Part shown: positions 19,326 through 39,551 of the stretch, piece by piece
How the letters are laid out: the number at the start of each line of letters is the position of its first letter
Position numbering within the stretch: the stretch's first letter is position 1
DNA from: Brevibacillus laterosporus
GTDB lineage: Bacteria > Bacillota > Bacilli > Brevibacillales > Brevibacillaceae
DNA: 64,000 bases
Assembly: GCA_007833815.1 (NCBI GenBank)
Contig: CP033464.1
Span: forward strand, 5,253,501-5,317,500
Reading direction: 5' to 3'
The notes under the pieces: model-generated
Told to the model about the DNA's origin: nothing
What the model saw: the letters and a program-made list of their open reading frames with translations, nothing else
Databases searched by the model: none
Translations under genes and position numbers: made by a program

Positions 19326-22300
19326 GCGTAAGTTGTCTGACTTTGAATGTGCTCCACAAGCATGCCGATCGTAGGATACAAATACATCTCGCGGATTTGC
19401 ACATGAAACTGGCAGTGGCGATTCATTTTATTAACAAGTCCGATAACTTTAATGGAATCTCCGCCCAAGTCAAAGAAGTTATCGTGGATGCCAACCTGCC
19501 GGACACCAAGCATGTCTTGCCAAATCTCCGCAAGCTGCCACTCCAGTTCACTACGTGGTGCTTCATAGTTCCCAACGTCGCGTAAGCTATCGTCCGGTTT
19601 CGGTAGCGCTTTGCGATCCACTTTCCCGTTGGATGTCAGCGGCATATTTTCCAAATATATAAAGTAAGATGGCAGCATAAAGCTTGGCAATTGTTTCGTC
19701 AGATAGGTTCTAACCTCCGAAACAGGCAGCTCCGAGTCTGCTGTAAAATAGGCGCAAAGCGATTTATGTCCTCCATCTCCCTCTCCGGCCAATACGGCAG
19801 CTTCTTTGATAGAAGGGTGCTCCAAAAGCTTCCGTTCAATCTCTCCTAGCTCAATGCGATGCCCTCTGATCTTGACTTGATGGTCTATCCGGCCCAAATA
19901 CTCCAAGTTTCCGTTCGGCAAACGGCGAACAAGATCCCCGCTTTTGTACAGCCGTTCGCCAGGCTCGTACGGATTCTGAATAAACTTTTCCGAAGTCAAT
20001 TCCGGCTGATGAAGGTATCCCCTTGCCAGCCCTTCTCCGCCTACGTGCAGTTCCCCAGGAACACCTACAGGCACTAGCTTGTTGCGTGGGTCCAATACAT
20101 AGGCCGTCAAAGTCGGAATAGGGTTCCCGATATCGCTACTATTTTGTTCGATCTCATTGGTGGTAATGTCTTTGTACGTAACGTGAACCGTCGTTTCCGT
20201 TATTCCGTACATGTTGATGAGCTTTATATGCTTGTATTTTTCTTTAAAAGACTTCAATTTGGCCGGCGCCAAAGCCTCTCCTCCAAAAATAACCATACGG
20301 AGACAAAGCTCCCGGTCTTCTGTCCGCATTTCTTCATGAATGACTGGATAGAAAGCAGTCGGAGTCTGATTGAGCACTGTAACGCGTTGCTCTTTCAATA
20401 GACCGATGAACCGCTGCGGATCTTGTGTCACTTCCTTTGGAACGATAAGCAGCTTGCCGCCGTAAAGCAAAGCCCCGTACATTTCCCATACCGAGAAATC
20501 GAAGCAATACGAGTGGAATAATGTCCATACGTCGTTTGAGCCGAAATCAAAGAGGGATTTGTCGTTGAACAGCAGTCTTACCACATTGCGATGCTCGATT
20601 AGCACACCTTTAGGCGTTCCCGTAGTGCCAGAGGTATAGATGACGTAGGCCAAATCGTTCGGAGTATTGATCGTCTCCAGATCGGCATGTTCTCCCTGGA
20701 ACAATTCCGGGCAATCGAGCAAAATTTGCTCACCGACAAACCCCGTTTTCGTCACAAGATGGCTTTGCGTCAGCAGAATTTGACATGCACTATTGGCCAA
20801 AATGAAATCAATGCGCTCCTGCGGATAGTCGGGATCAATAGGAACGTAAGCACCGCCGGCTTTTAAAACCCCCAAGATGCTCACGATCATCTCTATTGAA
20901 CGTTCGCACATTATTCCGATCAGCTGATCTGCCTGCACGCCCTTGGCTCTAAGCTCTCTTGCCAACTGATTGGACTTTTCGTTCAGCTCGCGGTAGGTCA
21001 AGCTTGAATCACCCATGGCCACTGCAATGTTGTCTGGGTTGCTCCTTACTTGCTCTTCAAACAGTTGATGAATCGTTTTCTCATGTGGGTAATCCGCCTT
21101 CGTATTGTTGCATTCCACGATTAGATGACTCTTTTCTTGTTCAGTTAAAATATCGACTTCTTCCAACAGGCAATCAGGATTAAAAGTTACATCTGCCATG
21201 GCCTGTTTCATATGGCCTGCTATGTTCTCGACCCATTCTCGTTCATGAACCTGGGCGTTGTAGCTGTAGATCACCTTCATCTCTTTGCCCGGAATGACCG
21301 TGACAGTAAAGTCATAGTTATTGTGCTCCGAAAATTCGATTCCTTCGATCTGTAGCCCCTTCTCTTTCGACCCGCTCAGCGCTTTCATTCCTTGTTCAAT
21401 CGGGTAATTTTCAAAAACGAGCAAATGGTCGAACAAATGTTGACGTAGCTCCGATTTTGCTTGAACCTCATATAAAGGACAATACGTGTGTGGTTCGGTC
21501 TCCAAGGAATTTTGCTGTATTTGGTGGATCAATTCGCGAAATGACATCCTGCCCAATCGTACGCGCACAGGAACCGTGTTAATGAATAAGCCCACCATTT
21601 GCTCGATACCTGGAATTTCCGCAGAGCGTCCCGAGACGACAGAACCGAACACAACGTCATCGGTCCGGTTATACTGCCGCAGTAATATGGCCCAAATCGC
21701 TTGGAAGACGGTATTTACGGTCACTTGATTCGTTTGAGCGAGATGAAGAAGACGTTCTGTCAATGTTTCATCCAAAGTCAGGCTCAATTCCTCATGATGA
21801 TAGGTTCCACTTTCTTCCCTTCGTTCTCCCGCTCTCGGAATCGTTGCCTGTTGGTTGTAATTGTCCAAATAGTTCTGCCAATAAGACAGCGCTTCTTCTC
21901 GATCGTTTCCGTAGAGCCATTCAATATACGTGTTGTAGGCCGGAGCTTTTTCCAGCTGCATCGTCTTCCCTTGCTGCATAGCATCATATATTTGAAAGAC
22001 ATCTTTAAAAATAATGCCGAGGCACCATCCATCCATAATCAAATGGTGGAAACTCCAAATCAGCGTGTGGCTTCTCTCTCCAGTTTTAAGGATAGAGATT
22101 CGGAGCAGCAGGTCACGTTGAATATCGAAGCCTCGCTCTCGATCGTTCGCTTTATACGCTTCGATATACGCTGCTTTCTGATTTTCCTCCATGGCCGACA
22201 GGTCTTCCACATGCACAGTCAATCTTCGCTGTTTCCACACCACCTGCTGCGGGCGGGTTAGGCCTTCGTATATAAACACCGTTCTAAGCACATCATATCG

Positions 22301-25300
22301 ATCAACTAATTCGTTCACGCTTCGTTCAAAAGCAGGGATATGAAGGTCGCCGGATAGCTCAAATTTGGCCTGTTCGAAATAAGCCGTCGTCCCTTCTTCC
22401 TTCAAATAGTGGAACAGCATGCCCTCCTGCATGTATGACAAAGGATAGATGTCTGCTATATTCGCTATGCTTCCGTCCTCTTTCAACCTATCTGCAAGAA
22501 TATCCCACTCTTCTAAGCTCAAGGTATGGCTACTAAAATCGCCGGAAGTCTTCTCCGATTCCGTTTGGGCGGCACAGTGCGCAATGATGTCCCGAATATA
22601 CCGTAAAAAGCTCTGAAGGAATTGGGCAACTGTCGTTTCTTTGTATTCTTCCCAGTGATAGCCTACGGTCAAGGTTAATGAGCCTTCCACAACCATAGCG
22701 TTAATGTCCAAGGCAACCGTGCGCTGCGCTTCCGCACTAACCATGTGTTGACACTGGTAATGGGATCGTTGAAAGACGTCTCTTTGTATGTCATTGTCAA
22801 ACTGTCCTAAATAATTGAAACGAATATCGGGTTCGGTTCGGAAGGCAATTCCTTGCTTATGTTCTTCCGACATCATGTATTTGGAAATTCCGTAGCCTAT
22901 GCCTTTATTGGGTATACGCCGCAGACCGTCCTTGACGCGCTTGATCCGGTAGCCGAGCAGGTTCGATTTCGTTTGAACCTGGTCCGAAGTGCGCAGATCG
23001 AGCAAAACGGGATAGATCGACGTAAACCAGCCAACCGTTCGGGTGATGTCCACTCCGGACAGTATCTCTTCTCTTCCATGTCCTTCGAGGTTAATCAGCA
23101 CCTGTTCTTGCCCCGTCCATTGCTGTACGGATAGAGCGAGCGCGGTCAACAGGATATCGTTGATTTCGGTACGATACGCTTGATGGGTTTCCTTCAGCAG
23201 AAGCCCCGTCTCTTCTTCCGACAGGGTCATCGAAAGCAACCGCTCATCCCTGCGTTTACGCTGAAGGGCTTCGCCGTCTTTGGGCAGCGGAGCGATCGAT
23301 ACGGATTCGATTTCTTTCCAATAATCGAGCTCTTTTTTCAGCTTCCTGCTGACTGCATAGGTCTGAAGCTGACTAGCATAATCTCGATAAGAAGTCGTCT
23401 TCGGCGGGAGCTTCATTTCTTTGTTCGCTTCCAGTTGGCTGTAGAGGTCAGAGAAATCCTCCAAAAGAATCCGCCAGGACACGCCGTCCACCACCAGATG
23501 GTGAATAGCAATCAGCAAGTGATCTCCTTCGGCTGTGCGGAATAAACCGAGCTTTACAAGCGTCGGGTCGGTCTCCAGATTCATGCTCTGCTGAATATTC
23601 CGCTCTTCTTCCGCTATGTGCGCAGTGATGTCGGTTTCCTGTGTCATATCCACTACGTGCAGATGCACCTGCTGTCCTTCGATCCCCCGGTTTTGCTGGA
23701 TCCAACCTCCTTCGTTCGACCGGTATACCCCCATACGCAGAGCATCGTGGTGCTCTGTCAAACGCTCAAAAGCACGACATACGAATGAAATGTCGAAGCC
23801 GTGGCGGCGATACAGCATAACAGATTGATTGTGATGGTGCAGTCCTTCGCCCTCTTGCTCCCGAAATAGCCCGATTTGAATGGGGGTAAAGCTCACTTCG
23901 CCTTCTACCGGACCTTGATCAATGATTTGACGGAATTCCCGTACGGAGGGCGATAATTCAGCAATGGAAGGATGCTGTAGCAAATTTTTGACCGACAGCT
24001 CAAAACCAAGCTTGCGCATTTGAGAGCACACTTGGAGAGCTTTAATCGAGTCCCCTCCCAATTGAAAGAAGTTTTCCGCAATTCCAATCCGGTTCACTCC
24101 CAAAATGTCTTGCCATACAGCGGACAATGTTTCTTCAATCGGATTGCGTGGAGCCGTATACTCGACTCCGCTATAATTATCTCCATCCGGCTCCGGAAGC
24201 GCTTGGCGGTTCAGTTTACCGTTGGGGGTTAGCGGAATGCAATCCAAAGATACGATATAAGAAGGTATCATAAAGCCCGGCAAAACTTGTGCCAGTGCAT
24301 CTCTCGTTTGCTTGATTGTGCATCCGTCCTTCAAAACAACATAAGCGTAAAGAGAACTTTGACCGTGGCGATCCTGTCGGGAAATAACCGCTACGTCCTG
24401 AATCGCTTCCATTTGCAGAAGCTTCGATTCGATCTCGCCAAGCTCGATCCGATGGCCTCTGATTTTAACCTGTTGATCCATCCGTCCTAAGTACTCCATA
24501 TCGCCGTTCGGGAGCCACTTCGCCAAATCTCCCGTCTTGTACATCCTCTTTTCTGGGAAGAACGGACTTTCTACAAATCGTTCCGCCGTCAATTCGGGCC
24601 GGTTTAAATATCCTCTAGCCACTCCTTCTCCCGACACGTACATTTCCCCTACAACCCCAATGGGAACTGGACGGCACTGCTCGTCCAAAATATAGCACGA
24701 CAATGTTGGGATAGGTTTTCCTATATTGCTGGCGGGATGATCCATATTAGCTTGATCGATTTCCTTATACGTGACATGCACAGTCGTTTCTGTAATTCCG
24801 TACATGTTGATAAACTTTACTTCGGGATATTTCTCTTTCCATTGTTTCAATCGCGTCGGAATTAAAGCTTCGCCTCCGAAAATCACTTTACGTAGCTTAC
24901 TTGCCGATTCGGGTCTGCCTAATTCCTCTTGAACTAGCGAATAGAAAGCCGACGGAGTCTGATTTAGGACGGTCACTTGTTCATGCCGGATCACTTCCCA
25001 AAATGCAGTGGGATCTTGAGCGACCGTCTTCGGAATGATGACCAATTTGCCGCCGTACAAAAGAGAGCCGTACATTTCCCATACGGAAAAATCAAAGCAG
25101 AACGAATGAAAGAGCGTCCATACATCCGACTCCCGGAAATCAAACAGCGGTTTACTGTTAAAAAAGAGCCTTACGACGTTTTTATGCTCAATCAAAACGC
25201 CTTTCGGTTTCCCGGTTGTACCGGACGTGTAAATGACATATGCCAAATCCCGAGGCTGTGCAATACTAACTGGATTGGACGTATCTCCCGTATACAAACG

Positions 25301-27055
25301 TTCGTCATCCAGATACATCAGCTCTCCCGCATAAGGCAGCTCAAATGGAAGATGACGCTGAAGAAGCAGCACGTCCACCCGGCTGTCTTCCAGCAAAAAC
25401 TGGATACGCTCTTTGGGATACTCCGGATCAATAGGCACATAAGCGCCCCCTGCTTTCAAAATACCAAGCATGCCTATGATCATTTCACAGGAGCGATCCG
25501 CCATGATGCCGATTAACTGATCTCGCTTTACTCCTTTGGTAAGAAGCTTTCTGGCCAATTGATTTGCTCGTTCATTCAGTTCCCGGTACGTTAGCTGCCG
25601 CTCTTCAAACACTACCGCAATATGGTTCGGCGTTTTTTCCACTTGTTCTTCAAAAAGCACTGAAATCGTTTTGTCCATAGGATATTCTGCATCTGTGTCA
25701 TTAAATGTAAACAAAATGTGGTTCTTTTCTTCTTCTGTGAGTAGATCGATCTGGGAGAGTGGTTGTGAGGGGTTCATGATTACTTGATCCAAAATGTTCA
25801 ATAATCCGTTCATCATGCTTTCAATTTCTTGTTCCGTAAACAATTCGGTACGATAATCCAGATAGAGGATAAGCTCCTCCGTATTCGCCTCTTCTACAAT
25901 ATGGATGTTCACATCGTTAACTTCATGTCCATGCGAAAGGCTTTCCGTTTGGTATGTAATATTCCCGATTTGGTCCCATCTAAGAGGTCGATATTCTAGA
26001 CAAATGCCGAATAATCTGTTCGTTTCCGGGTTATTTTTTCTCAAATGCTGAATCAGCAAATTATAGGGGTATTTTTGGTGTCGTAGAATCGAAGCTTTTT
26101 CTTTATTCACATGCTGAAGAAAGGTGACAAAATCTATGCTCGGATCCAAGCAAGTACGAAGAGGAAATGTGCTAACAAACATGCCAAGCATCTCTTTTTC
26201 TTCTTTGGTCGTACGATTGGCATAAACTGTACCAATCGCAATATCCCGTTGGCCTGTCATTTTATAAACATAGACGTATAAGGTTGTTAGAAATATTGAA
26301 AATATATTCGTAGCATAATTGTTACAAAAATCATGGATTTTGCTACCGAACTCTTTAGGAAGCTGGATCGTTTTCCGTTCGGCTTCCGTACCTATCTGGT
26401 ATGAATTGTAATCTTTGAGGCTTATAAACTCCGGCAAGGTGGAAAATTTTTCATTCCAAAATGTGCGGTCTTTCTCGTATCGAGCCGATGATAGGTATTC
26501 CTGCTCATTCTTAATGAAGTTTAAGTATGACGCACCCGTTTTTTGAAGCTGAGGTTCATTATCCATTAGGTTCGTGTAAGCTTCAAAGATTTGCCTTGCC
26601 ATAAAATCCAAAGACATGCCATCGACCATGATGTGGTGAAATTTACCGAAAATAAGCGTCTCCTGATCACTCAACCGAATCAATGAGAATGCATATAATC
26701 TGGAATTGAATTGCTCGAAGGGGGTCTGAGACTCACGCTTCACCCATCCGTCAAAATCATCGATATCGTGAATATCAAAAAACGGAACATCAAAAAGTTC
26801 ATGATCGGCAAAATACTGTCTCGATTCATCGTCATCGTGCTGAATCAGACGAATTTGAAAAGCGCTATTGTTTGCCGTCACGATATGAATAGCCTTGACT
26901 AATAAGGAATAATCGATATCGCCCTTCACTCTTATAAATCCGGCAAGGTTTGAAAGGCTAGAATTGGAATATAATTGATCGGTATACCAGATTCTTTTCT
27001 GCGGATGAGTTAGCAAGTAAGTGTCGGAATTTGTCCGTTCTGCCTCTTTGTTCAT
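14654..27055 (-). CDS. Non-ribosomal peptide synthetase, initiating subunit, modules 1-3 with starter C domain
   Basis: A 4133-residue synthetase with domain order Cs-A-T-E / C-A-T / C-A-T-E. The N-terminal C domain resembles the lipo-initiating domain of surfactin SrfAA as I remember it: LTHPQKRIWYTDQLY near residue 17, HHIMVDG near 170, an NRT...GMFVSTFPLRT block and HQKYPYNLLI. With no NRPS gene upstream, acyl-chain loading is predicted. Carrier serines are in GGDSIKA (about 1000), GGDSIKV (2528) and GGDSIKA (3609). The first E domain has HHLVVDG (about 1187) and looks active. The last E domain has HP at the catalytic HH and VGHGRE for EGHGRE, so it looks dead. The C-terminus ends with an acidic COM-donor-like helix (ELTLDELEDISELLSTL). 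The ATG follows GGGGAGGAAT. No MbtH, PPTase or transporter gene is visible in the window. Confidence 0.95.
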   Translation of the reverse strand: MNKEAERTNSDTYLLTHPQKRIWYTDQLYSNSSLSNLAGFIRVKGDIDYSLLVKAIHIVTANNSAFQIRLIQHDDDESRQYFADHELFDVPFFDIHDIDDFDGWVKRESQTPFEQFNSRLYAFSLIRLSDQETLIFGKFHHIMVDGMSLDFMARQIFEAYTNLMDNEPQLQKTGASYLNFIKNEQEYLSSARYEKDRTFWNEKFSTLPEFISLKDYNSYQIGTEAERKTIQLPKEFGSKIHDFCNNYATNIFSIFLTTLYVYVYKMTGQRDIAIGTVYANRTTKEEKEMLGMFVSTFPLRTCLDPSIDFVTFLQHVNKEKASILRHQKYPYNLLIQHLRKNNPETNRLFGICLEYRPLRWDQIGNITYQTESLSHGHEVNDVNIHIVEEANTEELILYLDYRTELFTEQEIESMMNGLLNILDQVIMNPSQPLSQIDLLTEEEKNHILFTFNDTDAEYPMDKTISVLFEEQVEKTPNHIAVVFEERQLTYRELNERANQLARKLLTKGVKRDQLIGIMADRSCEMIIGMLGILKAGGAYVPIDPEYPKERIQFLLEDSRVDVLLLQRHLPFELPYAGELMYLDDERLYTGDTSNPVSIAQPRDLAYVIYTSGTTGKPKGVLIEHKNVVRLFFNSKPLFDFRESDVWTLFHSFCFDFSVWEMYGSLLYGGKLVIIPKTVAQDPTAFWEVIRHEQVTVLNQTPSAFYSLVQEELGRPESASKLRKVIFGGEALIPTRLKQWKEKYPEVKFINMYGITETTVHVTYKEIDQANMDHPASNIGKPIPTLSCYILDEQCRPVPIGVVGEMYVSGEGVARGYLNRPELTAERFVESPFFPEKRMYKTGDLAKWLPNGDMEYLGRMDQQVKIRGHRIELGEIESKLLQMEAIQDVAVISRQDRHGQSSLYAYVVLKDGCTIKQTRDALAQVLPGFMIPSYIVSLDCIPLTPNGKLNRQALPEPDGDNYSGVEYTAPRNPIEETLSAVWQDILGVNRIGIAENFFQLGGDSIKALQVCSQMRKLGFELSVKNLLQHPSIAELSPSVREFRQIIDQGPVEGEVSFTPIQIGLFREQEGEGLHHHNQSVMLYRRHGFDISFVCRAFERLTEHHDALRMGVYRSNEGGWIQQNRGIEGQQVHLHVVDMTQETDITAHIAEEERNIQQSMNLETDPTLVKLGLFRTAEGDHLLIAIHHLVVDGVSWRILLEDFSDLYSQLEANKEMKLPPKTTSYRDYASQLQTYAVSRKLKKELDYWKEIESVSIAPLPKDGEALQRKRRDERLLSMTLSEEETGLLLKETHQAYRTEINDILLTALALSVQQWTGQEQVLINLEGHGREEILSGVDITRTVGWFTSIYPVLLDLRTSDQVQTKSNLLGYRIKRVKDGLRRIPNKGIGYGISKYMMSEEHKQGIAFRTEPDIRFNYLGQFDNDIQRDVFQRSHYQCQHMVSAEAQRTVALDINAMVVEGSLTLTVGYHWEEYKETTVAQFLQSFLRYIRDIIAHCAAQTESEKTSGDFSSHTLSLEEWDILADRLKEDGSIANIADIYPLSYMQEGMLFHYLKEEGTTAYFEQAKFELSGDLHIPAFERSVNELVDRYDVLRTVFIYEGLTRPQQVVWKQRRLTVHVEDLSAMEENQKAAYIEAYKANDRERGFDIQRDLLLRISILKTGERSHTLIWSFHHLIMDGWCLGIIFKDVFQIYDAMQQGKTMQLEKAPAYNTYIEWLYGNDREEALSYWQNYLDNYNQQATIPRAGERREESGTYHHEELSLTLDETLTERLLHLAQTNQVTVNTVFQAIWAILLRQYNRTDDVVFGSVVSGRSAEIPGIEQMVGLFINTVPVRVRLGRMSFRELIHQIQQNSLETEPHTYCPLYEVQAKSELRQHLFDHLLVFENYPIEQGMKALSGSKEKGLQIEGIEFSEHNNYDFTVTVIPGKEMKVIYSYNAQVHEREWVENIAGHMKQAMADVTFNPDCLLEEVDILTEQEKSHLIVECNNTKADYPHEKTIHQLFEEQVRSNPDNIAVAMGDSSLTYRELNEKSNQLARELRAKGVQADQLIGIMCERSIEMIVSILGVLKAGGAYVPIDPDYPQERIDFILANSACQILLTQSHLVTKTGFVGEQILLDCPELFQGEHADLETINTPNDLAYVIYTSGTTGTPKGVLIEHRNVVRLLFNDKSLFDFGSNDVWTLFHSYCFDFSVWEMYGALLYGGKLLIVPKEVTQDPQRFIGLLKEQRVTVLNQTPTAFYPVIHEEMRTEDRELCLRMVIFGGEALAPAKLKSFKEKYKHIKLINMYGITETTVHVTYKDITTNEIEQNSSDIGNPIPTLTAYVLDPRNKLVPVGVPGELHVGGEGLARGYLHQPELTSEKFIQNPYEPGERLYKSGDLVRRLPNGNLEYLGRIDHQVKIRGHRIELGEIERKLLEHPSIKEAAVLAGEGDGGHKSLCAYFTADSELPVSEVRTYLTKQLPSFMLPSYFIYLENMPLTSNGKVDRKALPKPDDSLRDVGNYEAPRSELEWQLAEIWQDMLGVRQVGIHDNFFDLGGDSIKVIGLVNKMNRHCQFHVQIREMYLYPTIGMLVEHIQSQTTYAQHEELLKDATAAAEAFKLSLREDVRFAERLTDAEDLHPMSEISKGMIYHSLKTPEAAIYHDQIVYRLKDDSYKHDILRQALEQLVAKHSMLRSSFHIHDFPEPVQVIHQHVAMEVNFFDLADQSAGERERFIADQLAKDRQNLFSIDVNKPLWRLHVYTLNEEYVLLAWIFHHAIMDGWSVASLMTELTTLYYRLKERQPLQIHALKSSYKDYVIEQLAIKNNHEFQQFWQEELTHYKRWELPVPHSSGGEIENASYTVVTKPLDPELVAKLKQIAQQHDTTFKTVCFTAFLSLLRMYAFEEDVVAGLVENARPICEDGEKILGCFLNTVPFRIQFEQEMTWADLIRKVHRKHVDLKEYGRLPLPDICKAAGETAFGKNPFFDIMFNYVDFHVFNNIAQGTMETDNVLFEIDNSYERTNMLLDFSVSTTLGHNLIKIGSVLPQATVEEMAQTFIRILELIMTDVNRRADKMNMILPEEKETLLTAFNQTQVRFPTEEPIHKLLEEAAERTPDRIALQYQDQQMTFQQVNQRANQLAYHLRSKGVMPNVLVGIVTERSFDMIVGILAVLKAGGAYVPIDPDFPADRIEYMLRDSQANILLAQSGRVSDLSFAGHIVLIDQEESYGGSTANLEPVHAMNDLAYVIYTSGSTGLPKGVTIEHANLLHVLFVHEYLYPLEEKDAFLLKTNYTFDVSMIEIFGWIVGDGRLVILEPGAEKEPHLIMQAIERHHVTHINFVPSMLSWFVSNAEQIGAIGQLKYIFAAGEALAPDLANKIREAVPGVRLENVYGPTEATVYATKFSVQGHTEKVVPIGKPLPNVQIFILSRMNQLQPLGVAGELCIAGSGVARGYLNRADLTAEKFVSNRIIGQGTLYKTGDLARWLPDGNIEYLGRLDHQVKIRGYRIELGEIETALLQAASARETAVVARENTYGQQELCAYVVTEEELVVSKLREALATFMPSYMIPSYFVQLDRLPLTSSGKLDRKALPEPEDCQNARGEYVAPRSETEELLANMWRDVLGVPQIGIQDHFFELGGDSIKALQISSRLYQYGFGITVKDLFQYPTIGELSPHVSRIRQSIDQGLVEGEVVLTPVQRQFLERQGELRRFSQSVILYRRNRFEEEAVREVFERLAEHHDALRMVYSQEEGAWKQHNRGVDGTSFSLEVVDISDEPDNAEKTAEQAMNIQQRIDLEKGPLVRLGLFRASGGDYLVVAIHPLVVDGGSWRILLEDFSTGYKQRTSGEVIGFPLKTTSYLDYAMRLAEYARKPQLLGEQEYWRSIEDIQVVGLPKDAETASNASNTSRDEYTLSVRLTEQETSQLLQEAHEAYSTDTEALLLTALGLSVQQWTGEKRALLNMVGHGREDDVLGGIDLSRTVGSFTSAYPVMLDMDVPGGLAGEDALSHQIKSTKDSLRRIPDKGIGYGALKYLVPEDKKEIAFCSKPEIALTYLGQLDCERNSEVFEISSFAATGSANSECYKEYTLDIKAFVTKGAMTLVVGYNRQQYNKATIERFIASFQQYLQSIIAHCVTREKERTLTDFSDEELTLDELEDISELLSTL
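19330..22555 (-). other. NRPS module 2 (C-A-T), predicted Thr
   Basis: The C domain is DCL-like (IYPLSYMQEGMLFHYL), fitting the upstream epimerase. The A-domain code is again D-F-W-N-I-G-M-V-H-K, and the domain is close in sequence to that of module 1, suggesting duplication. No epimerase follows. Confidence 0.8.
22560..27055 (-). other. NRPS module 1 (Cs-A-T-E), predicted acyl-D-Thr
   Basis: The starter C domain is followed by an A domain whose code reads D-F-W-N-I-G-M-V-H-K, the standard threonine code. The E domain keeps HHLVVDG, EGHGRE, VGWFTS and FNYLGQF. The product of the module should be N-acyl-D-Thr (or D-allo-Thr). Confidence 0.8.
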
Positions 27056-28129: not shown

Positions 28130-28169
28130 TGCATGCAACTGTCTCTGTGACAGGGCATGCGTTTTTTTT
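28130..28169. terminator. Terminator hairpin, copy 1 (left end of the ThiF cassette)
   Basis: The stem GCATGC..CTGTC / GACAG..GCATGC is followed by eight T on the plus strand. Nearly the same hairpin occurs at 33560-33598 at the other end of the cassette. No plus-strand gene ends here, so copy 1 looks orphaned. Confidence 0.7.
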
Positions 28170-28291: not shown

Positions 28292-29002
28292 TTGAAACGA
28301 TTTTTTAGGTACATCCTCGTGATAGCAATGGTCATTAGCTCTTTTAGTACAAGTGCATGGGGACAAATAGCATTAGCAGATTCCAATAAGGATTCGCAGG
28401 CAAAAGCAATAAAAAAGGAGTGGACTGTAGGAATTTTGCTTTTTGACGATGTGGAGGTATTAGATTTTGCAGGTCCTTTTGAAGTTTTTGCTGTAACAGG
28501 GCAAGATACATCATTTAGTCCGTTCCATGTAAAAACGGTTTCGCAAGATGGAAAAATGATAGCTGCACGAAATGGATTGAAAGTTCAGCCTGATTACAGT
28601 TTTGAAAATGCCCCTGCTTTTGACATTCTTATTGTTCCAGGAGGACCTGGTAGTCGTAAGGAAATGTACAACAAAAATATGCTCAAATGGTTACAAGAGC
28701 GGATGAAAACCGTTGATATCATGGCTTCCGTATGTACGGGTGCATTAATTTTAGCGGAAGCAGAATTACTAAATGGAAAAACGGTTACAACACATTGGAA
28801 TTCCTATGACCGCCTTGAAAAAGATTATCCCAATCTAAAGGTCAAGAGAGACGTGAAGTTTGTGGATGAAGGAAAAATTGTAACATCAGGTGGTATTTCT
28901 GCTGGTATTAACATGTCGTTCCATCTTGTCAAACGATTGTTAGGTAAAGAAACTGCCGAGCATACAGCGAAGCTTATGGAGTATGACATTGTAATCGAGT
29001 AA
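28292..29002 (+). CDS. Secreted DJ-1/PfpI family protein (class I glutamine-amidotransferase-like)
   Basis: About 236 residues. The best start is TTG at 28292, nine bases after AAAGGAG; the ATG at 28283 is too close to the ribosome site. A signal peptide is clear (RFFRYILVIAMVISSF...ALA), so the protein is exported. The DJ-1/PfpI core has DVEVLDFAGPFEVF, VPGGPGS, the nucleophile elbow SVCTGALIL and GGISAGINM, the layout of isonitrile-hydratase-like and AraC-N-terminal-like members. Substrate unknown. It is the first gene of the 28.3-33.5 kb cassette; export sets it apart from the cytosolic ThiF enzymes that follow. Confidence 0.85.
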   Translation: MKRFFRYILVIAMVISSFSTSAWGQIALADSNKDSQAKAIKKEWTVGILLFDDVEVLDFAGPFEVFAVTGQDTSFSPFHVKTVSQDGKMIAARNGLKVQPDYSFENAPAFDILIVPGGPGSRKEMYNKNMLKWLQERMKTVDIMASVCTGALILAEAELLNGKTVTTHWNSYDRLEKDYPNLKVKRDVKFVDEGKIVTSGGISAGINMSFHLVKRLLGKETAEHTAKLMEYDIVIE

Positions 29003-29051
29003 GTGGCTAGAAAGGTAACTACCGTTTACTCTTACAAAGGTGGGCAAAAAA

Positions 29052-29900
29052 ATGGACGAAAATCAGTATTACTGGGAAATGGTCAAAAAAAATATTGGCG
29101 TATACTCCCAAGAAGAACAGGAACAACTCCGAAATGCTAAAGTAATTATCTTTGGTTTGGGCGGCGTTGGTGGTTATGAAGTCATTTTATGCGCACGTAT
29201 GGGACTGGGACATATCACTGGAGTTGATCCTGACGAATTTGAAGTATCTAATATTAATCGCCAAATGCTGGCTACTTCTAGTGTGATAGGACAATCGAAG
29301 GCAGCCGTAGCTGAAAAAGTAGCAACAGATATACATCCATATATATCCTCAACATTTATCCAAGCAAGTGTGGACGAAGATAACGTAGAGGAGCTAATGA
29401 AAGGACATGACATAGTAATAGAAGCAGTAGACGATATGCCATCTCGTGTTATTATCCATCGAACTGCCCGTGAACTGGGCATCCCAAGTGTAGGTATGTC
29501 TGGTAGTCCTCCTACACGTGGGTTTGTATCTTCCTTCTTCCCTGACGGAATTCCATATGAAGAAGCGTTAAATATTCCAGGTATGGGGCAAAAATTAACG
29601 GATCAAAACTTGCGTCAGCAAGTTGCAGATATAAAAAAAGGCAGGGCCTGGCATTCTGTTGAACAAGGTGCCCCAAAAGAATGGGCTGAAGCCTTTTGCG
29701 AGGGGAAAGCTGGTTGGATTATTACACCAATGCGAGCCCATTTACTTTCTTTGTTCAGTTTTAATGAAGCGGTACAAATTCTGACTGGACGTGAACCTTT
29801 GGCACGTGCCCCAAAAGGAATCCTTATCAACACAGATTGTTTGACACCTGTACAAATCAAAGAAGCTCCCATTGGCGGATGGGATTATACAACATTATAA
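29052..29900 (+). CDS. ThiF/MoeB/HesA (E1-like) adenylyltransferase, first copy
   Basis: About 282 residues; ATG at 29052 after AAAGGTGG (a GTG at 29040 is in frame). The nucleotide-binding features are present: GLGGVGG, then GVDPDEFEVSNINRQ and the GQSKA lysine. The family adenylates a carboxylate, usually the C-terminus of a ubiquitin-like protein. It lacks the CxxC zinc pairs of ThiF/MoeB; its few cysteines (ILCARMG, AFCEGK, TDCLT) are not in an obvious thioester context, so adenylation without sulfur transfer is likely. It lies 10 bp before a second ThiF-like gene with the same length and shared blocks (EVSNINRQML and EASNLNRQML; PSRVIIHR and VARVIIHR), suggesting tandem duplication and perhaps a heterodimer. 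Confidence 0.9.
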   Translation: MDENQYYWEMVKKNIGVYSQEEQEQLRNAKVIIFGLGGVGGYEVILCARMGLGHITGVDPDEFEVSNINRQMLATSSVIGQSKAAVAEKVATDIHPYISSTFIQASVDEDNVEELMKGHDIVIEAVDDMPSRVIIHRTARELGIPSVGMSGSPPTRGFVSSFFPDGIPYEEALNIPGMGQKLTDQNLRQQVADIKKGRAWHSVEQGAPKEWAEAFCEGKAGWIITPMRAHLLSLFSFNEAVQILTGREPLARAPKGILINTDCLTPVQIKEAPIGGWDYTTL

Positions 29901-29910
29901 GGGGGACAGT

Positions 29911-30777
29911 ATGATACACCAAAACGTGAATACGTCTGATTTATATAAAGAAAGCTTCAAACGAAATATCGGGGTTATTTCTACCTTTGAACAAGAGAAA
30001 TTACGAAATGCCCGAGTTACAGTAGTAGGAGCTGGGGGTGTCGGCGGCATCACATTGCTTCAATTGGCACGCATGGGTGCTGGTAACATACACGTAATTG
30101 ATCAGGATGTTTTTGAAGCTAGTAATCTAAATCGCCAAATGCTCAGTTTTGTTAGCCGAATTGGTTCTAACAAGGCAGAAACTGCGGCTGAGCTGTTAAA
30201 AGACATTAATCCATCCATAAATATTCGTGTCACACAAGATTTTGTAACAGAACAAAATGCTACTGACCTTCTAAAAGACACTGATGTGATAGTAGATGCT
30301 ACCGATGATTTGGTTGCACGAGTCATCATTCATCGAGCTGCGGCTACATTAGGTATCCCTTCTATCTGGATTGCAGTGACTCCTCCATTCCGAGGAGGAG
30401 TTATGTCCCTTACTCCTGATTCTGTACCATATGAGATTGCGCTAGGCTATCCATCCTATCAGCAGGAATTGACAGAGAATTTGAAACATAGCATTCATTT
30501 AATGAAGGATGGAAGGGCTCTAAACTCCATTTCCCACGGTGCAGACGAAGAATGGGCACAAAACTACGTAAAAAAAGAAAGCCCTTGGGCGGTGCTGTCA
30601 CCAATAGCAAATATAGTAGGAATCCTGGCAAGCTTTGAAGCGTTTAAGCTAATCGTCAAACGTTCATCACTACCGCCTATTTTAAGTCCTGAGCTTATCC
30701 GTGTAGATTTGGCAAACAGCGACATGGTACAAGTCATGAATCCGCAAAACGGGTCATGGAATTACTCAGAGCTATAG
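29911..30777 (+). CDS. ThiF/MoeB/HesA (E1-like) adenylyltransferase, second copy
   Basis: About 288 residues; the ATG at 29911 follows GGGGGACAGT (a longer in-frame start at 29872 overlaps the previous gene and is unlikely). It has GAGGVGG, VIDQDVFEASNLNRQ and SNKAE, so the ATP site looks intact. It contains no cysteine at all, which excludes a catalytic thioester or cysteine zinc site in this subunit. Its match to the preceding gene runs along the whole length (NIGV near the N-terminus, GRA.NS.SHGADEEWA against GRAWHSVEQGAPKEWA, and W[DN]Y at the C-terminus). The pair probably works together. The substrate is unknown, and no Gly-Gly ubiquitin-like protein is encoded in the cassette. Confidence 0.9.
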   Translation: MIHQNVNTSDLYKESFKRNIGVISTFEQEKLRNARVTVVGAGGVGGITLLQLARMGAGNIHVIDQDVFEASNLNRQMLSFVSRIGSNKAETAAELLKDINPSINIRVTQDFVTEQNATDLLKDTDVIVDATDDLVARVIIHRAAATLGIPSIWIAVTPPFRGGVMSLTPDSVPYEIALGYPSYQQELTENLKHSIHLMKDGRALNSISHGADEEWAQNYVKKESPWAVLSPIANIVGILASFEAFKLIVKRSSLPPILSPELIRVDLANSDMVQVMNPQNGSWNYSEL

Positions 30778-30784
30778 GTTTCTC

Positions 30785-31054
30785 ATGTTATTCCTTCTGT
30801 TACCTTTCGCAAACGGAAAAGCTTCGGTAGACAATATCATGAAAGTCTTTAGCTCTCCTACAGGTATCGGAGCCATATGTGCCGGTTTCGTCATCTCTTA
30901 CATCGGTGGTAAAGGTGTCAGTGTTCTACCTGATGCTCCCGTCCTTTTAATTGGTGTGCTGGTTGGTACGTTAATAGCCGTGCTTTTTGCAAAAGGTTTA
31001 CCTGCTGGTTTGATTATTGCCGCAGGGATTATTGCACTCTTTTCTACCAAATAA
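30785..31054 (+). pseudogene. 5'-truncated DUF441/UPF0756 (YtwI-like) membrane protein
   Basis: The 89 residues match, from memory, the C-terminal half of the YtwI family: a PFANGK segment, SPTGIGAI, an SYIGGKGV loop, a VGTLIAVLF helix and GLPAGLIIAAGI. Full-length members are about 150 residues with further N-terminal helices. Here the coding sequence begins 7 bp after the ThiF stop, so there is no room for the missing part, and no good ribosome site precedes the ATG. It may be translated by coupling but is probably a remnant. It marks a rearrangement junction inside the cassette. Confidence 0.65.
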
Positions 31055-31068
31055 AAGGAGATCGTAGC

Positions 31069-32133
31069 GTGAAAATCAAGTTCGTATCTAAAGCTTTAAT
31101 AAGCCTGGCTTGCTTTACATTACTTACAGCCTGCACTAAGAGTCAGGAACCTGTAAAACAAACAGATTCAGCCACCGTTTTACAAGAAGAATTCAACGTG
31201 CCACAAGGCCAAGAACAACTATATCTCCTACATAAAAGCTTGAGCACAAAAAAAGAGTACACCTCAGATGAAGTCATTTTATTTTTGGAGCCATTCAGTG
31301 TACCGACCGCTAAAGCATTTGATGTCCCACAATATTCCTGGATGGAGGAATATGCAAGTAAAGGCTATGACACGTGGGCTATGGATTTTAGAGGATTCGG
31401 AAACTCGTCGCGTCCAAAAGAAATGTCAGCTCCCGCTTTAGACAACCCTCCTGTTATCCATGTAGACGATGCCACGCAGGATTTGGAAACGGTCGTCAAG
31501 TGGATTCAGACAAAGCGGAATGTAAGCAAAATTCATATCGTAGGCTGGTCTTATGGTGGTGTAGTCGCTGGTAACTATGCAATTAGTCACCCACAAGATA
31601 TTAATAAGCTCGTACTCTATGGTTATATGCATGGTTTCACATTACCTATGATGACAAAACCTTTTGAAAATCCAAAAAAGGCGGGGCAATTTAACCCTAG
31701 TCTACCAGCCTATCAAGTAGTAGATTACGAGAAGGGCATGCATCATTGGCACATGATGATCGGAGACAAAAAAATCGTAGAAAATAATTCCATGACAGCA
31801 GTAAAGGGTGTGTTTCTATCTTCCGATCCGCAAAGTGATCAGAACAAAGGAGCTGTTCGACGTCCGTTCGGTCCATTGGAAGATTTGTTTTCAATTTGGA
31901 GTAACAAACCTTTATATGATGCATCAAAAATTTCCGTACCTACTCTCGTGATTTACGGTAAAGATGACCTGTTTGCAGACCAAGGTATGCTCAATAAGTT
32001 AACAGGTACACAGGAGAAAAAGGAAGTTGTCATTCCAGATGCAACACACTGGGCCATCTACGAAAAAAATCGGGACACATTAATGCAAGAGACACTGAAA
32101 TTTTTGACAGATGAAGAAGGTGGCAAAAAATAA
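31069..32133 (+). CDS. Alpha/beta-hydrolase lipoprotein
   Basis: 354 residues; GTG start at 31069 after AAAAGGAG. The N-terminus is a lipoprotein signal peptide with lipobox LTAC near residue 22, so the enzyme should be anchored outside the membrane. The hydrolase fold shows DFRGFGNS (oxyanion strand region), nucleophile elbow GWSYGG near residue 163, the late acid in YGKDDLF and a final His in ATHWAIY. Substrate unknown; the family includes esterases, lactonases and peptidases. Its stop overlaps the start of the next gene (TAATG), implying translational coupling and a shared role with the HMGL-cupin enzyme. Confidence 0.85.
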   Translation: MKIKFVSKALISLACFTLLTACTKSQEPVKQTDSATVLQEEFNVPQGQEQLYLLHKSLSTKKEYTSDEVILFLEPFSVPTAKAFDVPQYSWMEEYASKGYDTWAMDFRGFGNSSRPKEMSAPALDNPPVIHVDDATQDLETVVKWIQTKRNVSKIHIVGWSYGGVVAGNYAISHPQDINKLVLYGYMHGFTLPMMTKPFENPKKAGQFNPSLPAYQVVDYEKGMHHWHMMIGDKKIVENNSMTAVKGVFLSSDPQSDQNKGAVRRPFGPLEDLFSIWSNKPLYDASKISVPTLVIYGKDDLFADQGMLNKLTGTQEKKEVVIPDATHWAIYEKNRDTLMQETLKFLTDEEGGKK

Positions 32134-33545
32134 TGGCACAGGTCACATTGTTGGATGCGACTCTTCGCGAGGGAGAGCAACAAGACGGTATCCGCTTAGC
32201 AAAAGAAGATAAAATCGCACTTTTACACATGCTAGAAAACTTCGGCGTAACGTTAATTGAGATCGGACATCCGGGAATTTCTCCTGAAGAAGAAAGCATT
32301 TGTAAAGAAGTAGCGGCAACAGCAGAACGAGCGGAGATTCTCATGCATGCTCGAGCAGACATAGAAGAAATTCGTTGTGCTTCTCGTGCCAAAGCTCATT
32401 GGGTTGGGATTTGGGCATCTGTAAATCCAATATCTCTACAAGCAAAATTTACCAATAAGTCCATCGAGGACGTGATGCAAAAGGTAAAATTTTCTATACA
32501 AGAAGCGAAAAGACTTGGTTTAAAAGTACGATTCACTATTGAAGATGCCTCACGCACAGATTGGAACGATATAGAGACGCTGGGGCTGTTTGCTTTAGAA
32601 GCAGGGGCTGATCGTATTAGCTTAGCTGATACAGTTGGCGTCTGGGAGCCTAAAGAATGTGCAAGAATGGTTCAGCTTGCGGTTGATAGATTTCCTTGTG
32701 AAATAGAGGTGCACCTTCATAATGATTTTGGATTGGCCATGGCAAACGCACTTGCTGCCATTGATGCCGGCGCAACTGTGATTGATACCTCTCTATGCGG
32801 GATTGGAGAACGAGCAGGCATCGTTGATTTACTTGCTTTTTCTACCGTGTTACATCAAAAGCGGAATATACATCAATTTAACTTGACACAAATCCCCCAG
32901 CTTGTTCGTATGCTCAGGTTAGCAACAGGTTATCAGATTGATAAACTGAAGCCTATCGTGGGTAAGAATGCTTTTACCCATGCATCAACATACCATATGA
33001 AAGCGGTTCAAAAGAATCCAGCTTCTTATGAGCCTATTCCTCCAGAAAAGCTAGGAAGAAACAGAGTGATAGTAAATAAGCCTACTTCACGAACAAAACC
33101 GAAACTATCTCACTTTCTACGTGTAGGTCAGCCTTTTATAAAAGGAGCATCTGAGCTGTTGTTTCACCGTGACGGTCCAGGTAACCGCTGGGTACAAATG
33201 GACCACCGCACAGACGAACGTGCATCTTTTTATGTAATAAAACGAGTATTTTCCCACCATGCATCTGACGATATTTCAAAATCCCATGTCGATACCCACT
33301 CACATCATTGTGACAGTGCTTTCATTTTCTGGGGAAACGAACCTGATGGATCAGGGTTGCAATGTGAAGTAGAAATAGAAGGAGAAGTGCAGCAAGTAGT
33401 AAGTCCAGCTTCTATTTTTATTCCAGCAGGCTTAGAGCATACGTATAAATATCTATCTGGCAGTGGTACTTATACGAACATTGTTTTGGCTCCAGAGTAC
33501 AATGCTAGTTTGGACATCACAAAACCTTTAGAGGTGGCAAAATAA
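32133..33545 (+). CDS. HMGL/homocitrate synthase-like DRE-TIM enzyme fused to a C-terminal cupin
   Basis: 470 residues. Residues 1 to about 290 form a DRE-TIM metallolyase barrel: DATLREGEQQ near residue 8, EIGHPG, RADIEEIRC, FTIEDASRTD, LADTVGVWEP and the metal motif HLHNDFG near 200, then the GIGERAG loop. This is the layout of homocitrate and 2-isopropylmalate synthases, which condense an acyl-CoA with a 2-oxo acid. After a linker, residues 340 to about 460 look like a cupin (VDTHSHHCDSAFIFWG, then SIFIPAGLEHTYKY). The LeuA regulatory domain is absent, so feedback control by leucine is unlikely. The start overlaps the previous stop. A terminator follows at 33560. This is a specialised condensing enzyme whose reaction cannot be read from sequence. 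Confidence 0.85.
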   Translation: MAQVTLLDATLREGEQQDGIRLAKEDKIALLHMLENFGVTLIEIGHPGISPEEESICKEVAATAERAEILMHARADIEEIRCASRAKAHWVGIWASVNPISLQAKFTNKSIEDVMQKVKFSIQEAKRLGLKVRFTIEDASRTDWNDIETLGLFALEAGADRISLADTVGVWEPKECARMVQLAVDRFPCEIEVHLHNDFGLAMANALAAIDAGATVIDTSLCGIGERAGIVDLLAFSTVLHQKRNIHQFNLTQIPQLVRMLRLATGYQIDKLKPIVGKNAFTHASTYHMKAVQKNPASYEPIPPEKLGRNRVIVNKPTSRTKPKLSHFLRVGQPFIKGASELLFHRDGPGNRWVQMDHRTDERASFYVIKRVFSHHASDDISKSHVDTHSHHCDSAFIFWGNEPDGSGLQCEVEIEGEVQQVVSPASIFIPAGLEHTYKYLSGSGTYTNIVLAPEYNASLDITKPLEVAK

Positions 33546-33559
33546 CTCTATGACTAAAA

Positions 33560-33598
33560 ACGCATGCAAACTGTCTTCTATGACAGAGCATGCGTTTT
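33560..33598. terminator. Terminator hairpin, copy 2 (right end of the ThiF cassette)
   Basis: ACGCATGC..CTGTC pairs with GACAG..GCATGCGT, followed by TTTT on the plus strand and preceded by AAAAA, so it can act on both strands. It ends the plus-strand cassette and the converging esterase gene at 33624. It is nearly identical to the hairpin at 28130. Confidence 0.8.
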
Positions 33599-36004: not shown

Positions 36005-39000
36005 TTATTTTCCTGTAGCTCGCATGATATCGTAAATCGTCTCACTAAATAGGCGAGGTGAAATGTCGGTAATAGGTAAGGGTTGGCTCTTTTCATAGTA
36101 ATAATAACGATCAAATTTGTTTTGATGAAAAGTCAAGCTATCTAAGCTGATGTCTTCCATTCCTTCATAATAAGAGATACTAGTACCACTGAATGTAAGT
36201 TCCGCAATCATATCGCCATACTCTTTGTAAAACTCATGGTACCAGCCTCCATCCTGCGCCATTCCTTTATACCAGCCGTACTTCTCCAAACTTTTTGGAA
36301 AGGCAGTTGGTGAATATTCTTCTTCAGAGAGGTCTGCAACTCTATTATTTTTTAGATGTTCTTCTGTTGGAAAGTAAAGCTGACGACTCAATTGGAGAAA
36401 AGGTTGCTTTATTTCATAATCCTCCAATTGTATTTTCCACGCTTCCAAATCTTCTTTACCAAGCTCGATCGGATGAACCAAACCAATGAGAGCATCTTCC
36501 TTACATTCAAACTCTTCCTCATCAACCGTATTAAAAGTACCATCGTCCATGTAACGGAAGGTAGCTTTTAGTTTTCCGTCCTCATACGCCCCAGATGAGC
36601 CCGATCGCAAATTTCTGCATCATCACATTTTCTACAAAGAGATTTTCCCAAGATGTCGTGCTCCACAATCTTTGTTTGCAGAGCGATTCTTCAAGGCGTA
36701 AGGATTGGATATTCACAAGGTTTTTTACATCTTTCTTCAGCTGGGTAAACTCCACTTTTGCTTGTTCAGCTAAAGTGGCATCATCCTTTTGAGCAGGAGA
36801 AGGTAGATTTTTAACTACTTTTCCCGTTTCATCATTGGTCACATGTAATTCACGATCATTATTCACTTTAACGGTAAACGTTCTCTGCCCATAGCTAAAG
36901 ATACGCTTACCCCTTTGATCAAATCCCAATGTTGTGACTAACCGATCCTCTAATTCCTCAGGCGATATTTTTAAGTTTTGTGCCGCCATTGCTAAAGCTT
37001 CCATTGACGCCGCCTTCACTTGTCTATTTTTTACAGTCCGCTTCACTTGATCAATTGTAATAAATGCTGCCAGTTCTTGCATAAAGGAAAGAGCTTTGAC
37101 TGCATCAGATGCAAGTGCACCACGTCCTGCTTCAGCCCACTCTTTTATCTTCTGGCTCAACACGTCGATGATTCTACGATCTCCAAGGGAGGTACAAACA
37201 AACATGACCCATTTTTCTTTAGCAGGTGCATTGTTATCGAGCCACATATTGAACAATTCCATCACGAAATCAGCTAATGATTTTGGATGAGCATACTCTT
37301 TTACCTTTAAAACATGAGGGTTAGGTGCTGTCGTAAAATCAACAGATTGCGTCAAAATGTACTCTTTTACTTCTGCATCCAGTTCCCCTCCCTCTAAATC
37401 TAGGAGAGTAGGAAGCTGCTCAATCATGAGCCATTTCAATCGTGCTAGCTTTCTTTTGTCTACCACGTTTCCAAATGTTGCATGAGATTTTTCCGGACTC
37501 TGTGTAGCAGCATCTATTAAACTTTGAAGTAACGCTTTGAACTTACTACTCGTCTCATTTGATAATAGGTCTTGATAGATGCTTTGATAGTTTTCCACAC
37601 CACGTAGGGCATCTAATGCTAACTCCTTTAGTTTAGCTTTCTTCTGTGTCTGATAGATACGCAAATAGAGATCTTTGTTTTTTACATTTGTAAACTCTGC
37701 TTGAGCTATACTGCTTGCCTTTTTTGAGGTATCTTGTAACCCAAGCTGAATGGCTTGATAGTAGTAGTCTTGTTTTAATTCATTCTTTTTCTCAAAAATA
37801 ATTTCTAGAATTGACGTTCTTGCATCTGAACCTAATTGTCCGTACAGTTGTAAGCTTTTTTCGATATTTCCCAAAACGATTTTTTGATAGGAATCCTCTG
37901 AAAGCTCGCTATAATAATCAACAGAACCTTTATAATTAAGAATATGAAGTAGAAAACGATTTATATCCACTTCAGGATCATCTGCATACGTAGCTATCCA
38001 TTTCTCAGGATCAAAGGCAGATGAGGAAAATAGCATATAAATGAGGGACATGTTTTCTTGTTGGGTCCCATAATGGCTCAGAAAGACGACAAATCGTTGA
38101 ATGATCGGATGTTCCACAGGAAGGAACGTAAACAAAAATAGCTGATCTTTTATATCATAGGAATTAAATTTATTATTCGATGAAGATTGCTGCGTAAATT
38201 CGTACAATATTTCTTGTAAAGACAGCTTTCCGGTAAGGTATCGATAGAGCTTATGAGTTTTGTTATTTTCCTGTAAGGAAGCAATCGCAATATCTTCTAA
38301 CGTTATATTTTGATCAGACATATTAACACCGTGGTCTTGCAGTGTTTTGAATATGTAGCCCTTGATCAACCAATCAGAAACAAGCACCATCGCTCTTTTA
38401 GCTCTCTGTGTATCAACAAGCAATCTCTCTTCTACCACCTGCCACGAAATTTGATAACCGCGCAATTCTTTGATTGCACAAACAATCAAATCATACGGCT
38501 CTGTCATAGGCACGATTCCTTTGAGCATTTCGTTCAGATCGGCTTCTTGCTCACGATGTAGGTAAGATAAGGAATTAATTACATCCAGAGGGATCATTTC
38601 ATAGAGCGAACTCATCGCACGTAATAGTTCCTGATCTAATTCATCCTGTTGTTGTAAGAAATTTGCTTTGCTTCCACGTATATTTACTCTGTAGAGAAGA
38701 GCCGATGTAACCAACGTAGCATATAAATTAAACTCAGAGCGGCTGAGTGTTTTTCCTGTTTGTTGTTCAGGACTATAATTGAACTGATTTTGGATAACCT
38801 CTATCTTCTGCTTGCGGATTTGTTTATCTAAGTAACTAGTAGAAGTACAATCTCGTTTCGCCAAGGTAACGGTAGATAAAGCTTCAATAGCAGTCGAAAT
38901 CTCCTGTTTTAGCCCCTCCACATTTTCGGTAATCAGGTAATACATATAGGATTGAACTTGGTCTTTGATTTGCTCAAGATAACTGTTATCAGCAAAAGAC

Positions 39001-39551
39001 AGATAGCTGAGAGTCAGCAGTAACGGAACAGCATGCTCTGTTACGGAATAAGAGTTCAAACTCGATATGTAATTATTAATAAGGGTATCGACATAAAAAG
39101 AAATAGCCGTATCCCCTATATATTTCTTCGTATCACAAAGTTGGCGGATAACCAGCTGTTTTTGTGCCTCTACATCTTTTATTTCTTGCGTAAGTCTGAT
39201 CGTTTTAACAAAATGACCAATACAAATACTCAAAACGTTACTTCTATGGTTTTCATTTGAACTCGTTTTAAAAAGAATAGCTGCCGCTCTAAAAAAAGTT
39301 TCGTCTGTTCCCCTTTTCCCCATTTTTTCTAGCTGAGATATGCAATCATAAGCAAATACTTTTTGATGGACAAGAATACTTGGAAACATGTCCTTCTCAC
39401 CAGACACATAAGCAATAATCTGATTATACTGATTGGAGTCAATGGAATCGTTTTGAGGATTTTGTCTAGAATAGTGTCCAGAATAATCCTTAACAAATTT
39501 ATCAGCAAATTGAGTGATTAAAGGATTACTTGCACTGTTTTTTAAAACCAT
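36005..39551 (-). pseudogene. DUF4132 (MolR-like) protein, split by a one-base frameshift
   Basis: The first 989 codons run from the ATG at 39551 (after GAGGAGGAATTCC) to a stop at 36582, ending FAIGLIWGV. The frame that overlaps there continues YEDGKLKATFRYMDDGTF..., LVHPIELG, DYEIKQPFLQLSRQLY and ends at 36005. Together they give the normal C-terminus of DUF4132 proteins (WG.Y.DG...FR..DDGT, LVHP.EL). A single-base indel near 36587-36592, beside a run of four G, explains the split. The protein would be about 1180 residues, mainly alpha-helical repeats. MolR-type genes occur with MoxR ATPase, VWA and SWIM genes; their role is poorly understood. None of the ATPase genes is in this window. Confidence 0.75.

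Follow-up and report, generated by a model that had tools for sequence, protein, structure and literature searches.

A five-gene cassette linking two ThiF-like enzymes to a homocitrate-synthase-like enzyme in Brevibacillus laterosporus and other bacteria

What pathway would bring two E1-like adenylyltransferases of the ThiF family, a homocitrate-synthase-like enzyme, and a lipoprotein hydrolase together in one operon? The question is raised by positions 28292..33545 of a 64,000-nucleotide stretch of Brevibacillus laterosporus contig CP033464.1 (hereafter, the window means this whole stretch), where six plus-strand genes encode a DJ-1/PfpI protein, ThiF1, ThiF2, a DUF441 fragment, an alpha/beta hydrolase, and an HMGL-cupin fusion (Table 1). 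A first-pass annotation, made from the letters of the window, described a five-gene operon. The genes exist, and they make up an operon, but there are six of them: DUF441 was overlooked and DJ-1 was wrongly included. The conserved unit, which we denote the cassette, consists of five genes, namely ThiF1, ThiF2, the DUF441 membrane protein, the lipoprotein hydrolase, and HMGL-cupin, separated by gaps of mostly 0-36 bases. With a probability of roughly 45%, we read it as a horizontally transferred biosynthetic cassette in which a homocitrate-like acid would be made by the HMGL enzyme and adenylated by the ThiF pair. The gene set had been called unfamiliar, and it still is: full-text searches, confined to open-licence papers so that absence is no proof, turned up no described pathway in which a homocitrate-synthase-like enzyme and an epimerase-like, metal-dependent domain accompany two E1-like enzymes.

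Distribution of the cassette

A ThiF2 search of 399 Bacilli genomes found nearly full-length matches (63-69% identity) with an adjoining second ThiF gene in 10 other genomes, as well as one broken copy in the same genus. The order ThiF1, ThiF2, DUF441, hydrolase, HMGL-cupin is kept in nine of the ten Bacilli loci; the tenth (G085, on a contig of 6,089 bases) has the first three cassette genes followed by a different gene. Scanning the genome_contigs collection with the ThiF1 alignment yielded 15 loci, six already in the Bacilli set (L074, L075, L078, L080, L081, and L083) and nine new, from two Bacillus, Croceifilum, two Oscillatoria, and metagenome-assembled genomes (MAGs) labeled Nitrospirae, Actinomycetes (two), and Deltaproteobacteria, the last of which was placed in Myxococcota in the ThiF tree analysis.

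The resulting set of 20 loci encoding both ThiF proteins, window included, spans Bacillota, Cyanobacteria, and MAGs of three other phyla (the second ThiF of L085 was shown by a separate search). DUF441 is present at all 19 loci where the contig reaches that far, counting the truncated copy of the window. The first-pass annotation had proposed checking whether the ThiF pair co-occurs with the HMGL gene in other genomes; the two are linked at 18 of the 20 loci. HMGL and cupin are fused in 15 loci and encoded by separate adjacent genes in L082, L084, and L085; L086 starts within an unfused cupin gene, and L075 is too short to tell. The hydrolase was found in 15 loci, divergently oriented in L073, and could not be judged in L085. 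DJ-1, previously taken for a pathway member, is linked to the cassette only in the window's genus (L069-L071). Conservation is stronger than the first-pass annotation stated, and its membership list is wrong by one gene in and one out; it also overlooked that HMGL and cupin can be separate genes in other phyla, as well as the cysteine of ThiF1, the connection with TusA, and the cassette's decay in the genus, all discussed below.

The cassette is rare. At the thresholds set for the search, ThiF1 was detected in 1 of 245 genomes from the phylum of L082, 1 of 345 from that of L086, 1 of 292 from the cyanobacterial phylum, and 1 of 296 from that of L084, the sole match in each of these four samples being the centre genome itself. 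By family, the counts were 2 of 193 for L072 and 7 of 40 (one broken) for the window.

The HMGL domain and the cupin

Ten residues of the HMGL substrate and metal site, including R12, E13, H72, R133, E137, T167, H194, and H196, are identical in all 14 aligned cassette enzymes (out of 18 loci with HMGL); we take their roles to be those in solved homocitrate synthases. Among solved structures, homocitrate synthases match best (6ktq, 2e-56; 3ivs, 7e-48; 2ztj, 3e-45), ahead of the isopropylmalate synthase 3rmj (5e-38), and the alignment with 3a9i is ungapped over residues 5-100, with H72 on H72. Because of this active site, the HMGL domain is predicted to form a homocitrate-like acid from acetyl-CoA and a 2-oxo acid, 2-oxoglutarate being the likeliest. 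The cupin showed a significant profile match to MarH, top fold matches to MarH (6j4b), and an HxH ... H metal-ligand motif, at an identity of about 20% and with a middling structure model (mean predicted local distance difference test score, 71.6). This presumed metal enzyme probably isomerizes or epimerizes an enolizable acid of the same pathway.

The ThiF pair

ThiF1 resembles Escherichia coli ThiF in fold, and, given that the alignment spans nearly its whole length, it has no large added domain; TcdA is absent among the 50 matches listed in either ThiF1 fold-match list. Both window proteins match the E1 adenylation fold and residues, with one exception among the relatives (see below). As the first-pass annotation had noted, neither contains the CxxC zinc pairs found in E. 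coli ThiF and MoeB, and ThiF2 has no cysteine. ThiF1 keeps an invariant cysteine, Cys216, in the E1 cysteine loop, where ThiF2 has none. No ThiS/MoaD-like partner was detected by Pfam among the window's cassette genes or as an extra cassette open reading frame (ORF) of at least 60-70 amino acids in the relatives, the rest of the genome not having been searched. ThiF1 and ThiF2 are old paralogues that occur together at all 20 loci. Correlations of pairwise identities were mixed (hydrolase/HMGL, 0.82; ThiF2/hydrolase, 0.84; ThiF2/HMGL, 0.78; ThiF1 with the others, 0.42-0.50) and are not relied on here; DUF441 is left out of them, its L076 and L077 rows having been read in the wrong frame.

The two proteins probably act as a pair in the manner of an E1, adenylating a carboxylate group on the homocitrate-like acid. 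Cys216 of ThiF1 could then take over the acyl group, and the product might be released either cyclized (lactone-like) or sulfur-bearing.

DUF441 and the lipoprotein hydrolase

DUF441 is 149 amino acids long in 8 of 10 relatives; when translation of the window copy is begun ahead of its ATG, the Pfam match widens to 43-138. Outside the window, the same genome carries a full-length second DUF441 gene (L153:4935-6975) that adjoins genes for ComB (2-phosphosulfolactate phosphatase) and ComA (phosphosulfolactate synthase) of sulfolactate synthesis; a third copy adjoins a DUF2515 gene. The Bacillus subtilis homologue lies near citZ. This placement beside makers of organic acids suggests that DUF441 is an organic-anion transporter, so that the cassette offers a context clue to what Pfam lists as a family of unknown function. 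In the cassette, it may export the product. The hydrolase carries a lipoprotein-type signal (LLTAC) and a GWSYGG nucleophile motif, both read by eye, and could act on the product outside the membrane. The route suggested in the first-pass annotation, in which HMGL makes an acid, the ThiF pair adenylates it, and an exported hydrolase follows, fits the conserved active-site and E1 residues as well as the linkage across phyla, but the part assigned to DJ-1 falls away. Neither outcome that the annotation named as refuting its idea came about: the neighborhood recurs in other genomes, and the literature searches met no known pathway with this set of genes.

Signs of decay and horizontal transfer

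A tree of 31 ThiF proteins, built without an outgroup, resolved two fully supported clades, ThiF1 and ThiF2; given this split, the ThiF duplication seems to be older than the spread of the cassette. The tree indicates horizontal transfer. In both clades, the window ThiF falls together with two Bacillus loci, the same pair each time (98/92 and 100/99), rather than with Brevibacillus porteri, and the Oscillatoria sequences sit among those of Bacillota. The genes flanking the cassette differ from group to group. Presence in five phyla at high identity suggests a portable, useful product. Carriage on plasmids was considered and rejected: the search returned one 36% match over 61% of ThiF1 in a Rhizobium plasmid and, with the L082 protein, none at 1e-40. 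No relative was found in viral contigs.

Of the five same-genus relatives of the window, three carry fragments of the cassette beside an almost complete DJ-1 gene (79-86% identity). G004 has a front piece with roughly the same match to ThiF1 as to ThiF2 (69%), and behind it the rear part of ThiF2 (86%); G003 retains pieces of HMGL-cupin, and G005 one piece of ThiF1 and one of the cupin. The fragments beside DJ-1 differ among L069, L070, and L071, pointing to separate deletions. The cassette is decaying in this genus, and the window copy may be on its way out.

Points that weigh against the proposed pathway

Several observations speak against the cassette making and adenylating a homocitrate-like acid as proposed. 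The NCBIfam model TIGR02146 (LysS-type homocitrate synthase) has an equivalog cut-off of 413.55, and the three fused HMGL proteins tested score below it (window, 294.8; L076, 277.2; L073, 286.0), as does the separate form of L085 (400.1); the separate forms of L082 (438.9) and L084 (417.8) pass. The 2-isopropylmalate synthase subfamily model NF002085 gives the three separate forms more bits (490.3, 482.3, and 458.5), all below its own cut-off of 517. Variation at HMGL positions 135 (T/S/A) and 165 (A/P) leaves room for a substrate other than 2-oxoglutarate. Judged by eye, the loop lengths set Cys216 two residues away from ThiF C184, and automatic alignment did not place the two in one column; ThiF2 of L081 carries Glu where D64 is expected. 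The hydrolase does not lie beside the ThiF genes in L072, L075, L082, and L084. Finally, the window copy may be losing function, given that its DUF441 is cut short and that nothing but fragments is left in three relatives of the same genus.

Alternative readings

The alternative that survives best, which we still regard as unlikely, is that the ThiF pair makes a thiocarboxylic acid: a persulfide from TusA or a cysteine desulfurase would attack the acyl-adenylate via Cys216 of ThiF1 to give a thio-acid or thiolactone, perhaps metal-binding and taken up through TonB. The ThiF-like fold and cysteine loop are compatible with this, and so are two gene neighborhoods. L082 has the run TonB receptor, ThiF2, TusA, HMGL, cupin, ThiF1, SufS-like pyridoxal phosphate enzyme, and DUF441, and in L086 TusA follows DUF441. 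The TonB-dependent receptor gene directly before ThiF2 in this Nitrospirae MAG (L082:5227-7290) is a single case. Just these 2 of 20 loci, however, have TusA inside the cassette, and a search of 14 cassette genomes did not find it in two (G383 and G392), which rules it out as an obligatory partner. The SufS-like enzyme scores 156.3 bits with TIGR01979, under the cut-off of 475.1, and lacks the segment bearing the CsdA cysteine that we take to be catalytic. In E. coli, TcdA becomes persulfurated and depends on CsdA/CsdE in vivo, yet its product has no sulfur (PMC4405576), so sulfur partners need not imply sulfur in the product. That sulfur enters the product at all is doubtful. The boldest form of the idea is a long shot: a heterodimeric bacterial E1 (one subunit with the loop cysteine, one without) would turn a homocitrate-type acid into an exported thiocarboxylic acid or thiolactone, retrieved through TonB in Gram-negatives, a new class of sulfur-bearing metallophore or signal made by a widespread but rare mobile pathway.

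It is improbable that the ThiF proteins modify a small precursor peptide, as in ribosomally synthesized and post-translationally modified peptide pathways of the microcin C or pantocin kind. At E 0.01, none of 644 small reading frames (12-100 amino acids, alternative starts counted separately) within 700 bases up- and downstream at 11 loci had a cross-group match, although peptides of less than 12 codons would escape such a search. The short gaps between the cassette genes and the lack of a large added ThiF1 domain also argue against a peptide pathway, in which a homocitrate synthase would have no evident role.

A protein-conjugation or anti-phage E1 system appears highly improbable. PADLOC E1-E2 models do match both ThiF proteins (best, 77.3 bits for ThiF2), but only in the E1 core; the other cassette genes match no PADLOC family at 0.001, and no E2, ubiquitin-like, or JAB domain occurs among the cassette Pfam matches. 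Chance adjacency of unrelated metabolic genes, of which the neighboring DJ-1 is an instance, has next to no standing for the cassette itself, given that the gene set stays linked across five phyla while its flanks change and HMGL and cupin are fused or separate, and that one pair of Bacillus loci is grouped with the window in both ThiF clades.

Layout and surroundings of the window locus

The likely start of ThiF2 is ATG 29911, the ORF list giving TTG 29872.

Table 1. Genes of the window locus
Feature	Coordinates	Strand	Remarks
DJ-1/PfpI protein, signal-like N-terminus	28292..29002	+	Pfam DJ-1_PfpI 1e-26; neighbor outside the conserved cassette
ThiF1, E1-like adenylyltransferase, 282 amino acids	29052..29900	+	Start ATG 29052, GTG 29040 also possible; invariant Cys216
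ThiF2, second E1-like adenylyltransferase, no cysteine	29911..30777	+	Pfam ThiF 3.1e-47; identity 48-68% (11 aligned relatives)
DUF441 membrane protein, N-terminally truncated here	30785..31054	+	Pfam DUF441 positions 53-138/139
Alpha/beta hydrolase	31069..32133	+	Pfam Abhydrolase_1 1.2e-25; identity 52-56% in relatives
HMGL-cupin fusion	32133..33545	+	Homocitrate-synthase-like residues 4-314; MarH-like cupin about 316-460

Two alike hairpins (GCATGC...CTGTC/GACAG...GCATGC) with T-rich tails, at 28131-28168 and 33562-33598, bracket the whole DJ-1-to-HMGL block in the same orientation. Their core pattern occurs twice in the window against 0 expected and, among 154 loci, only in L004, L009, and L099, all overlapping the window. 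An Rfam scan of the window gave no match; across 15 loci, there were three (a cobalamin riboswitch, an S-adenosylmethionine (SAM) riboswitch, and a tRNA), all outside the cassette genes. A regulatory RNA at the cassette was discarded, the SAM aptamer of L081 sitting downstream of HMGL-cupin on the opposite strand.

Upstream (14654-27055, minus strand), a 4133-residue protein looks, by eye from its translation, like a multi-module non-ribosomal peptide synthetase and was not seen beside the cassette elsewhere. This synthetase and an esterase neighbor are ruled out as pathway members by the differing flanks in other genomes. At 36005-39551 (minus strand), a 989-amino-acid ORF matching just the start of DUF4132 (1-76 of 179) is overlapped by a 201-amino-acid ORF in a different frame; the pair may be a frameshifted DUF4132 gene.

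Comparison with known systems

HcgE is kin to ThiF/E1. Few known cases of E1-like enzymes acting on small molecules turned up, and the cassette is small enough for direct expression and testing. In [Fe]-hydrogenase cofactor synthesis, HcgE is proposed to adenylate a small-molecule carboxylate that is then passed to a protein cysteine, much as suggested here; its substrate is a pyridinol, the acceptor cysteine is on another protein, HcgF, and no homocitrate synthase takes part (PMC9314073). TcdA/CsdL, the tRNA cyclic N6-threonylcarbamoyladenosine cyclase, shares with the cassette E1-like carboxylate activation, a link to a cysteine desulfurase relay, and a cysteine (Cys234) in the loop ahead of the last helix, whereas it acts on tRNA as a homodimer, with neither HMGL nor cupin (PMC4405576). 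ThiF and MoeB, of thiamine and molybdopterin synthesis, differ in that the cassette shows no ThiS/MoaD partner gene and no CxxC zinc site, and has two paralogues. LysS-type homocitrate synthases (6ktq and 2ztj) share the HMGL domain and its active-site residues with the cassette, and the NCBIfam cut-off is reached by two of the three separate cassette forms, whereas most cassette copies fall below it and have a cupin fused behind a shortened post-HMGL domain. MarH, by its PDB title a metal-dependent cupin epimerase of maremycin synthesis (6j4b), differs in its low identity to the cassette cupin and in the HMGL fusion of most cassette copies, and resembles it in profile, fold, and metal-ligand motif. 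TyzB, the tyrazolone cyclase, uses an N-acyl tyrosine substrate and a nitroreductase partner, with no HMGL; like the proposed cassette enzymes, it is a ThiF-like protein encoded in a biosynthetic operon, where it carries out ATP-dependent cyclization of a small metabolite (PMC12479983).
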